From: Bacteroidales bacterium
Lineage (GTDB): Bacteria > Bacteroidota > Bacteroidia > Bacteroidales > UBA4181
Length of the DNA stretch: 36,797 nt
Assembly (NCBI GenBank): GCA_031270985.1
Contig: JAISWR010000146.1
Span: 1 to 36,797, forward strand
Reading direction: 5' to 3'
The position numbers and the translations under genes are program-made. The notes beneath the pieces were generated by a model. It was not told where the DNA came from, did no database searches, and saw only the letters and a program-made list of their open reading frames with translations. Shown piece by piece: positions 4,271 through 36,422 of the stretch (position 1 is its first letter; every line of letters begins with the position of its first letter).

Positions 4271-4281
4271 TGGTTAATCCG

Positions 4282-4339
4282 TAATTCTTAATTCTTAATT
4301 CTTAATTTTTAATTTTTAATTCTTAATTCTTAATTCTTA
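4282..4339. repeat. (TTAATTC)n heptanucleotide simple repeat
   Basis: taattcttaattcttaattcttaatttttaatttttaattcttaattcttaattctta. Confidence 0.9.
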
Positions 4340-21239: not shown

Positions 21240-22148
21240 TTACAAATTGTCATATTTGGATATGCTTGCGGGGTCTATTTCTTTCAGAATTTTCACCACC
21301 CTGCTTTTTTCGTCTGCCGGCGAAACGGCAAACAGTTCCATCCATTCATTGGATTTTGACTCCGACACCATCTGCACGAGTAGCGTGTAAGGATCCGGCT
21401 TACGGCGATAAACATCCTGCAACAGTTTCATGTAGTCGGCTATTTCGCTACGCACTTCATTGGGACGTGTGTTCATCCTGTCCAATCCTAAGCGGTGGTA
21501 TTTGTAACTAAATTCTCGAACACCGCGATAACGGTCATCCGTGAGGTTTTGCGCTATCCAGTAACGGTTTTTGTTGCTGCCCGACCCTTCGTAAGCGCGC
21601 CATCCTTTTTCGCCCGATTTCTGTGCGTTGGCGACAATGGTTTCGGCTTTCCGGAAATACGGTGTTCCTCCGCCTTGAGAAAAGGAATCGTAATCCATTC
21701 CCAGAATAATGTAGATGTAGAACGCAATGATGGACGTGAGGTTCGACTGATAGGTGATTTCGCTGAATTCCAGCGGTTCGCCCTCTACGTAAGTAAATTT
21801 CAGGTTTTCATCCTGAAAATTAAGTAAAATGGTGCTGTACGCCGAGTTAAATACCGGACGCCGCGACTGTACCTGCAACGTTCCCGTAAATTCATTACCC
21901 ACCAGACTTTTGATGTTCAACAGCATATTACATTCAATGCGTTCTTCGACGGAAAAAGCGTTGTTTGTCCACGCCCGCGAATTGACGAACTCGTACAGGG
22001 CGGTTTGCAAGGCGTCCGTCACGCTTTTGTTCGATCCTTGTATCTGGGTGGTCACCAGTTGTATGTTGCACCGCAATTCTTGTCCGTTTGCCGCAAAAGC
22101 CACTGTCATCAAGCAAACCGATATGTAGGTGCGCAAATTAGTTTTCAT
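21240..22148 (-). CDS. DUF4835 family protein
   Basis: QELRCNIQLVTTQIQGSNKSVTDALQTALYEFVNSRAWTNNAFSVEERIECNMLLNI...FYIYIILGMDYDSFSQGGGTPYFRKAE; sits next to coaBC. Confidence 0.85.
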   Translation of the reverse strand: MKTNLRTYISVCLMTVAFAANGQELRCNIQLVTTQIQGSNKSVTDALQTALYEFVNSRAWTNNAFSVEERIECNMLLNIKSLVGNEFTGTLQVQSRRPVFNSAYSTILLNFQDENLKFTYVEGEPLEFSEITYQSNLTSIIAFYIYIILGMDYDSFSQGGGTPYFRKAETIVANAQKSGEKGWRAYEGSGSNKNRYWIAQNLTDDRYRGVREFSYKYHRLGLDRMNTRPNEVRSEIADYMKLLQDVYRRKPDPYTLLVQMVSESKSNEWMELFAVSPADEKSRVVKILKEIDPASISKYDNL

Positions 22149-23340
22149 GGAAATATGCAGTTAATTGATTCACTATGTCATGAGCGACTTCCGTTTTGCT
22201 TTTCAGCGGGAAATGACGGACATTGCCCTGCGCGTCCATAACGGTCACTTTGTTGGTGGGGTGTCCGAATCCTGCTCCTGCTTCTTTCAAGGAGTTGAGT
22301 ACGATAAAGTCCAAATTTTTTCGGTGCAGTTTTTCGAGCGCGTTTTCTTGTTCGTTGTCTGTTTCAAGTGCAAAGCCTGCGGTGATTTGTCCGGCGCGTT
22401 TCATTTTTCCAAGTTCGGCAGCAATATCGTTGGTGCTTACCAGCGGTAATGTAAATTCCTGCTTGTCTTTGATTTTCTGCGTGTGGACATTTGCCGGCGC
22501 GAAGTCGGAAACGGCAGCCGCAAAGATGGCGGCGTCACAGGACGGGAACAGGTCTGCGGCAACCCGATACATTTCTGCGGCGGTCTGCACGTCTGTTTTC
22601 CTGATGGACGGATGCTCCGGCTGCAAACTTGTGGGGCCGCTCACCAGCAACACTTCCGCACCCCGTTGCGCCAATTCTTCCGCAATAGCATAGCTCATTT
22701 TTCCCGATGAATAATTGCTGATGTACCGCACGGGATCTATCGGTTCCTGTGTGGGACCTGCGGTTACCAGCACTTTTTTCCCGTTGCAATCGCCTGTTGT
22801 AAATATTTCGGAAATTTTGCGAACAATCGTTTCCGGTTCTTCCATGCGTCCCTTACCTTCCAAACCGCTTGCCAACTCTCCCGTTCCCGGCGCTATCACA
22901 TGAACTCCGCGCTCCTGCAGGACATTGAGATTGTGCGTGACGGCAGGGTGGAGAAACATATCTACATCCATAGCAGGCGCCACAAGCGTCGGGCAACGCG
23001 CGGACAAATATGTGGTGAGCAAAAGATTGTCGGCTATTCCCGTGGCCATTTTGGCGATGGTGTTGGCTGTTGCCGGCGCGATCAACAAAGCGTCAGCCCA
23101 TATACCCAAATCCACATGACTGTTCCATGCGCCGTTTTCGGGATCAAAAAAATCAACCAGCACTGCATGTTTGGAAAGCGTTGCCATTGTGAGCGGAGAG
23201 ATAAATTCCTTTGCCGATGGCGTCATTATCACCCGCACTTCTGCGCCTTCTTTCACCAAAAAACGGACAAGTACAGCTGCCTTATACGCCGCTATGCTTC
23301 CCGTAACGCCCACGATAATATGTTTTTTCCCGAGCGGCAT
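22138..23340 (-). CDS. coaBC: Bifunctional phosphopantothenoylcysteine decarboxylase/phosphopantothenate--cysteine ligase
   Basis: HIIVGVTGSIAAYKAAVLVRFLVKEGAEVRVIMTPSAKEFI...APAMDVDMFLHPAVTHNL...VLVTAGPTQEPIDPVRYISNYSSGKMSYAIAEE. Confidence 0.97.
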   Translation of the reverse strand: MPLGKKHIIVGVTGSIAAYKAAVLVRFLVKEGAEVRVIMTPSAKEFISPLTMATLSKHAVLVDFFDPENGAWNSHVDLGIWADALLIAPATANTIAKMATGIADNLLLTTYLSARCPTLVAPAMDVDMFLHPAVTHNLNVLQERGVHVIAPGTGELASGLEGKGRMEEPETIVRKISEIFTTGDCNGKKVLVTAGPTQEPIDPVRYISNYSSGKMSYAIAEELAQRGAEVLLVSGPTSLQPEHPSIRKTDVQTAAEMYRVAADLFPSCDAAIFAAAVSDFAPANVHTQKIKDKQEFTLPLVSTNDIAAELGKMKRAGQITAGFALETDNEQENALEKLHRKNLDFIVLNSLKEAGAGFGHPTNKVTVMDAQGNVRHFPLKSKTEVAHDIVNQLTAYFHEN

Positions 23341-23351
23341 GTCCGGAGAGG

Positions 23352-23918
23352 TTATTTTTTCTTTCTGGTTTTGGTCGTTTCTACTCCTTTTGTCTTGGCT
23401 GTTTCTGTCCTTTTTGTTTTAGCTGTTTCCGCCCTTTTCGTTTTGGCTGTTTCCGCCCTTTTTGTTGCGGCTGTTTCTATTCTTTTTGTTGTGGCTGTTT
23501 CCGTCCTTTTTGTTGTGGTTGTTTCCGTCCTTTTCGTTACGGCTGTTTCTATTCTTTTTGTTGCGGTTGTTTCTACTCCCTTCGTCTTGGCTATTTCTAC
23601 TCCCGTGATAGGATTACGGTAATATACTTCACGGTCGATGTATTCCTGCAAGGCGAGTAATGCTGGTTTAGGGAGTTTTTCGTAGGAGCGGGATATTTCT
23701 ATTTGTTCGCGGTTTTCAAATACTTCTTCCAGATTATCGGTGAAGCCGGAAAATTCTTCCAGCCGGCGGTTCAGTTCCTGCTTGATTTCCACGCTGATCT
23801 GATTGGCGCGTTTGGCAACAATCGCAATAGTTTCATAAATATTTCTGGTATCTCCGTACAATTGACTCAAATCCCTTGTAATAGTGGTGACAGGCGTTTT
23901 TGATTTTTTAAAATCCAT
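23352..23918 (-). CDS. rpoZ: DNA-directed RNA polymerase omega subunit (Bacteroidetes type) with repetitive basic C-terminal extension
   Basis: MDFKKSKTPVTTITRDLSQL...NIYETIAIVAKRANQISVEIKQELNRRLEEF...NLEEVFENREQIEISRSYEKLPKPALLALQEYIDREVYYRNP, then about 80 aa of TKRTETA-type octapeptides. Confidence 0.88.
   Translation of the reverse strand: MDFKKSKTPVTTITRDLSQLYGDTRNIYETIAIVAKRANQISVEIKQELNRRLEEFSGFTDNLEEVFENREQIEISRSYEKLPKPALLALQEYIDREVYYRNPITGVEIAKTKGVETTATKRIETAVTKRTETTTTKRTETATTKRIETAATKRAETAKTKRAETAKTKRTETAKTKGVETTKTRKKK
23377..23607 (-). repeat. 24-bp tandem repeat (nine full units plus a partial) encoding octapeptides in the rpoZ tail
   Basis: Exact 24-bp periodicity of GTTTCxxxCCTTTTxGTTxxGGCT on the plus strand, 23377-23592, partial tenth unit to about 23607. 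Confidence 0.93.
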
Positions 23919-23955: not shown

Positions 23956-24768
23956 TCAATTATCGTCTTCATCGGGGTTATTTCTGACTTTCAGGTAAGT
24001 GTCGGCATGTTCGTACATGCGTTGCGCTTCTTTGGCATAACCGCTTTGCGGAAATTCGCCGATGAACGAATAATATTCATCCACGGTAGCCTGATAACGT
24101 TCTTTCTGTTTTCCTTCCACGCTGTTTTCGGCAAGCAGGTAACTCGACTTCAACAGCAGAAACATCAGTTCTTCGCGGTGTTTGGTGTCCGGATAATCGT
24201 TCAGGCTGTTGTTTAATGCGACAATGGACGATTTGTACAGGCTGAGGTTGTAATACAGTTTTGCGCTGAGGTAAGATTTATCCACTAATTTGTCCTGCAT
24301 TTCCACGAAATATTTCAAAGCATCCTCTTTGTACTGCGAAGTGGGATAATGTCGCAGAAACAAGTCGAATATTTCGATGGCTGCGGCAGTCATATCCTGA
24401 TCCAGTTCCGGGCGCGGACTTTGCCGGTAGTAGCAATATCCCGTAAGAAATTCGCACTCTTCGGCAAAAGGAGACATCGGTGTGTTCTTGTAGTGCATGC
24501 TGAAATAATGAGAGGCGTTGAGATAGTCCTTTTGTTTGAAATGGCTCATTGCCTGATAATAGGCAACAGTATCCGCCTTGTTGGTACCACGGAATATCGC
24601 CACGATCTCGTCGAGCAATTGTCCTGCCCGCACATAATCGCCTCCGTTGTAATACTCAATGGCTTTTTTGTATTTCAACGCATAGTTGGAACTCTTGCGC
24701 AACCTTTCATACTGGCTGCACGAGGCGCACATAAACACGGCAAAAATGACGAAAAACGATTTTTTCAT
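23956..24768 (-). CDS. bamD: Outer membrane assembly lipoprotein BamD
   Basis: MKKSFFVIFAVFMCASCSQYERLRKSSNYALKYKKAIEYYNGGDYVRAGQLLDEI..., lipobox plus TPR-like repeats; upstream of rpoZ. Confidence 0.9.
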   Translation of the reverse strand: MKKSFFVIFAVFMCASCSQYERLRKSSNYALKYKKAIEYYNGGDYVRAGQLLDEIVAIFRGTNKADTVAYYQAMSHFKQKDYLNASHYFSMHYKNTPMSPFAEECEFLTGYCYYRQSPRPELDQDMTAAAIEIFDLFLRHYPTSQYKEDALKYFVEMQDKLVDKSYLSAKLYYNLSLYKSSIVALNNSLNDYPDTKHREELMFLLLKSSYLLAENSVEGKQKERYQATVDEYYSFIGEFPQSGYAKEAQRMYEHADTYLKVRNNPDEDDN

Positions 24769-24785
24769 GCAAAATAAATTCCGCA

Positions 24786-24817
24786 CAAAGATATGAAAAA
24801 TTTCTGTAATCAACATA
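24786..24817 (-). promoter_or_regulatory. Putative promoter for the bamD-rpoZ-coaBC-DUF4835 cluster
   Basis: Minus strand TATG (complement 24814-24817, one mismatch to TTTG) - N20 - TATCTTTG (complement 24786-24793). Confidence 0.5.
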
Positions 24818-36387: not shown

Positions 36388-36422
36388 ATTATTCACTATT
36401 CACTATTCATTATTCACTATTA
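36388..36422. repeat. (ATTCACT)n short simple repeat
   Basis: attattcactattcactattcattattcactatta. Confidence 0.8.

Follow-up and report, generated by a model that had tools for sequence, protein, structure and literature searches.

An RNA polymerase omega subunit from a Bacteroidales bacterium with a cationic C-terminal extension that probably arose by in-frame repeat growth

The window analysed in this work, a stretch of 36,797 nucleotides from the draft genome of a Bacteroidales bacterium, encodes on its minus strand an RNA polymerase omega subunit that ends in a tail of tandem octapeptides. We consider it likely that the protein is an ordinary Bacteroidota omega carrying a species-specific, repeat-born cationic extension, which is tolerated and possibly acts as a weak nucleic-acid tether. 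According to the proposed mechanism, the native last octad (TGVExAKT-like) would have been tandemly duplicated in frame, via slippage or unequal recombination, and the array would have expanded to nine diverged copies within the lineage of this species. The product would be a 77-residue cationic C-terminal extension, predicted to be disordered. If the tail acts, it would most likely do so by drawing DNA or RNA to the polymerase through weak, non-specific electrostatic forces; otherwise, the tail would be a tolerated by-product of repeat growth. We lean against a selectable effect of the tail, while giving it appreciable weight.

The omega gene and its neighbourhood

The rpoZ-type gene occupies positions 23352-23918 of the minus strand, with its TAA stop codon at 23352-23354, and encodes 188 residues including the repeat tail; the assignment was based on ORF translation, core homology and gene order. 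The conserved core comprises residues 1-103 (23610-23918, minus strand) and closes with EVYYRNP. It shares 76-80% identity with the congener proteins and aligns end to end, up to residue 103, with the solved Rpb6/omega chain 8dkc_E (E = 1.6e-34), which bears out the initial annotation of the gene as omega. The best domain match was Pfam RNA_pol_Rpb6 (E = 3.3e-5), whose score of 24.2 bits lies just below the cutoff of 26. This was the single omega match in its own genome, which is 85% complete.

Upstream of rpoZ lies bamD (YfiO family; 23956-24816, minus strand), recognised by a domain match and by 63-74% identity to the congener proteins. Downstream, coaBC (22138-23340, minus strand; ~70% identity to congeners) starts 11 bp past the rpoZ stop codon, whereas three of the six congeners have an ATGA overlap between the end of rpoZ and the start codon of coaBC. 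The bamD-rpoZ-coaBC order is the same in the congeners, and coaBC is followed by the type IX secretion gene porD. The length of 188 residues falls outside the usual ~107-127 residues (a typical and not a defining range; 111-127 in the congeners). Because both the core homology and the neighbourhood point the same way, and an unusual length is no bar to membership, the protein is, judged by its sequence, a member of the omega family (Rpb6 family, Bacteroidota type).

Architecture of the repeat tail

Residues 1-111 of the protein match its relatives, and the residues past 111 form the 77-residue tail, composed of nine octapeptides and a TRKKK end. The octad at 23586-23609 (minus strand), ITGVEIAK, corresponds to the native C-terminus of the congener proteins and is the likely seed of the array; we refer to it as unit 0. 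It is followed by nine 24-bp units (23370-23585, minus strand; delineated by Tandem Repeats Finder and translation), which read TKGVETTA, TKRIETAV, TKRTETTT, TKRTETAT, TKRIETAA, TKRAETAK, TKRAETAK, TKRTETAK and TKGVETTK. Their consensus is T-K-R-x-E-T-A-x with a period of 24 bp or, allowing for the variants, T-K-[RG]-x-E-T-[AT]-x. The translation then ends with TRKKK (23355-23369, minus strand), comparable to the ...AKTKK terminus of the omega from congener G007.

Within the nine units we found no indel that breaks the frame. Tandem Repeats Finder independently detected the array at 23388-23574 (period 24, 7.8 copies, 82% match) and also read it as periods 48 and 72. Single units match the 24-nt consensus at 16-23 of 24 positions; the array is thus a diverged minisatellite and not a perfect one. 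It has the structure of a coding minisatellite, with tandem units of a length divisible by three placed in frame inside rpoZ. The in-frame 24-bp repeat described in the initial annotation is therefore real, as is the long repeat tail after the core, but the added part amounts to 77 residues rather than ~85, since the genus-native protein runs beyond YYRNP to about TG[VI]ExAK. Likewise, the nine full units were counted correctly, and what was taken for a partial tenth unit is the terminal TRKKK.

The tail is also cationic and threonine-rich, as initially described: ~35% of its residues are Thr, and 24 Lys/Arg and nine Glu residues give a net charge of +15 and a pI of 10.7. The charge per unit climbs from 0 to +2 toward the C-terminus. 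In an AlphaFold2 model built with 49 omega sequences, pLDDT was 44-57 in the tail, where the alignment has no depth, and 68-94 in most of the core; the tail is accordingly predicted to be disordered. We infer that it is translated and retained on RNA polymerase.

Occurrence in related genomes

We recovered rpoZ from 10 of the 12 genomes of the family; it was not found in the draft genomes G002 and G003. When rpoZ lengths were compared among these close relatives, as had been suggested at the outset, the departure proved real. The stop-to-stop frame spans 197 codons in this genome only and 114-131 codons in the nine others, all of which (six of them congeners) lack the tail. The congener proteins end in LTGVEVAKP, ATGIESAKTKK, ATGIEATKS, ATGVEASKS, ETGIESTKG and VSGAESDK. 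In PolA, the congeners share 74-78% identity with this genome; as all of them are fairly distant, they set only loose limits on the age of the array. Separately, the omegas of two congeners (L004 of G006 and L005 of G001) have an apparent N-terminal extension of ~15 Lys/Ser-rich residues (MKKSSE..KV..KETADS), replacing the usual MDFKKSK start.

A first search, covering 91 genomes with rpoZ, returned frames longer than 150 codons in two other genomes, G065 and G014. Their omegas (L031 and L032) bear charged tails of ~76 and ~46 residues, respectively, which are unrelated, non-repeat and independent; the G065 tail combines acidic and Ala-rich sequence and is rich in Lys at its end. No other frame exceeded 152 codons among the ~150 best Bacteroidia matches of 386 genomes with a match. 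Overall, ~240 Bacteroidales/Bacteroidia omegas beyond the family, the two long-tailed ones included, showed no similar open frame. The open-access literature, a coverage that leaves out most subscription papers, yielded no description of an omega repeat tail.

Since the omegas of G065 and G014 carry independent long tails, an extension at the omega C-terminus is tolerated. Omega fusion proteins are able to act within the polymerase, as exploited in omega-based bacterial one-hybrid systems. An appended tail would hence be compatible with omega function, because the omega C-terminus tolerates added sequence.

Origin of the array

In-frame duplication of the native omega C-terminus is the probable source of the array, an origin that the initial annotation had missed. 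The octad ITGVEIAK sits where the genus-conserved TG[VI]E end falls. Its DNA matches unit 1 at 16/24 nt and unit 9 at 16/24 nt, an agreement with a chance probability of ~1e-5; among the 24-mers in a 220-kb sample of this genome, that level is reached at frequencies of 2.5e-5 (unit 1), 5.9e-5 (unit 9) and 1.4e-5 (both). The GVE core of the native end persists in units 1 and 9, which agree with each other at 19/24 nt, and units 2-8 have RxET in common. Terminal units of the GVE type around homogenised RxET inner units suggest that the array grew from within, with the old units left at its ends. The last residues, TKTRKKK, also resemble the AKTKK end of the G007 protein. The seed match of 16/24 nt is not overwhelming and counts against certainty about this origin.

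Searches with the tail, both at the protein level and as a DNA pattern, recovered the rpoZ array alone from its own genome and the relatives. A dispersed or mobile repeat was rejected, as no second array was found there; the weak matches in congener G005 are 8-bp GAAGGCGC-type microsatellites lying in several frames, and the single extra pattern match in the own genome (C145:4216) is outside any tandem array. A match of the tail to Pfam Cornifin (E = 3.4e-4, below the cutoff) was set aside as low-complexity resemblance, and the antisense ORF at 22900-23622 as a mirror of the repeat.

Other repeats were observed as well. At the contig end (36424-36797), a noncoding 43-bp unit is repeated in tandem ~8 times, each copy pairing AAACGGGGTCGGTTGGCRCTTT with either of two types of second half; the same 20-mer recurs, in part tandemly, on three G003 contigs, and the other genomes of the family lack it. 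Simple 7-bp repeats are present in this genome at 4274-4339 (TTAATTC, 9 copies), 36390-36421 (TATTCAC, 4.6 copies) and L091:283-344 (TGAATGA, 9 copies). The GAAGGCGC-type arrays of G005 comprise 14-26 copies and are distributed over four contigs. A 240-bp direct duplication (2122-2599, 91% match) lies within a 672-codon open frame on the plus strand.

Selection on the tail and alternative explanations

Across the nine units, codons 1, 2, 5 and 6 (T, K, E and T) are either invariant or differ only at third positions. Of 14 distinct unit differences, seven are synonymous and 13 are transitions; in simulations keeping the observed 13:1 transition bias, seven synonymous differences had P = 0.059. 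The Nei-Gojobori dN/dS-like ratio was 0.46 in frame and 0.48 in the +1 frame, which served as a shifted-frame control. Given this P value and a +1-frame ratio so near the in-frame one, the substitution pattern suggests, at most and weakly, purifying selection on the tail sequence. In a 220-kb genome sample, only the omega array combined more than five units, a period divisible by three and a location inside an evident gene.

These data bear directly on the reading of the tail as a functional domain under selection, in which a multivalent, disordered, K/R/E-rich segment would bind RNA or DNA or promote condensates and thereby tune transcription. The net charge and its climb along the units, the constraint on the four codons, and a frame that has kept clear of stops and disruptive indels while the units diverged considerably all speak for such a domain, and Bacteroides Rho, with its KE-rich disordered region, provides a precedent. 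Nevertheless, the tail was seen in one species only, and the frame-shifted control and the transition-corrected P value give selection little hold, so that we regard a selected domain as unlikely. The contact with DNA or RNA, phosphorylation and transcriptional tuning envisaged in the initial annotation thus gained no direct support: selection at the sequence level is weak, and the congeners lack the tail. We find it very unlikely that rpoZ is a contingency locus, at which the number of units would shift among strains and change the tail length in 8-residue steps, giving heritable variation in transcription. Such a locus would fit a 24-bp in-frame array whose 72-bp higher-order period suggests multi-unit duplications; in addition, AlgP of Pseudomonas has a basic tail whose repeat number varies among isolates (PMC9239181), and, in Yersinia pestis, mutations under natural selection have hit rpoZ (PMC6962365). 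The units are diverged (82% match), however, which would lower the slippage rate.

Two further readings seem highly improbable to us. One takes the array for an assembly or binning artefact, misassembled or joined to rpoZ as foreign sequence. The genome is indeed a fragmented draft of 146 contigs, and the exact unit count could be wrong; still, a chimeric contig is unlikely, because bamD and coaBC, on both sides of rpoZ and in the congener order, match the same genus and the contig runs for more than 12 kb each way. Moreover, the array consists of diverged units that keep the frame, and its sequence is similar to the native C-terminus. The other takes the array for a DNA or RNA element in the first place, such as a cluster of binding sites or a control region of coaBC, read in frame by chance. 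The array does keep rpoZ and coaBC apart, and this genome lacks the ATGA overlap seen in half of the congeners, but the array lies entirely within the reading frame, variation in codons 1, 2, 5 and 6 is confined to third positions, and no copy was found elsewhere in the genome or the genus. We found no terminator-like site on the coding strand.

We therefore keep to an ordinary omega with a tolerated, repeat-born extension as the preferred reading. A tail that remains on the polymerase would be a natural example of how a core transcription subunit gains a disordered polycation through repeat growth; one that is merely tolerated would mark the omega C-terminus as a permissive place for new sequence. 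The most far-reaching version, in which a core RNA polymerase subunit has gained, from its own C-terminus, a repeat tail that binds nucleic acid or clusters the polymerase and evolves in length by 8-residue steps, appears decidedly unlikely.

Comparison with known systems

Residues 1-103 of this omega align end to end with the Bacteroidota omega/Rpb6-type chains 8dkc_E and 9n9p_E; unlike it, these chains have 108-110 residues and no repeat tail. The omegas of G065 and G014 share the general plan, with a charged low-complexity tail after the core, but their tails are unrelated in sequence and non-repeat. In Bacteroides thetaiotaomicron Rho, a KE-rich subdomain is needed for RNA-dependent condensation (PMC13269538). 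This region and the omega tail, for which we claim no sequence similarity, are alike as charged disordered parts of core transcription proteins in the same phylum; the Rho region differs in that it is not known as a tandem repeat expansion and in that its function has been shown for Rho. AlgP of Pseudomonas aeruginosa, like Rho a precedent for a charged disordered part that matters, carries a histone H1-like tail of KPAA repeats, the number of which varies between isolates (PMC9239181). Neither proline nor KPAA occurs in the omega tail, which sets it apart from the AlgP/histone H1-like KPAA type, and AlgP further differs in its repeat (KPAA versus TKRxETAx), in its longer tail and in not being an RNA polymerase subunit. 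We claim no homology between the two proteins, which are alike in that both end in a basic, predicted-disordered C-terminal tail of short repeats.
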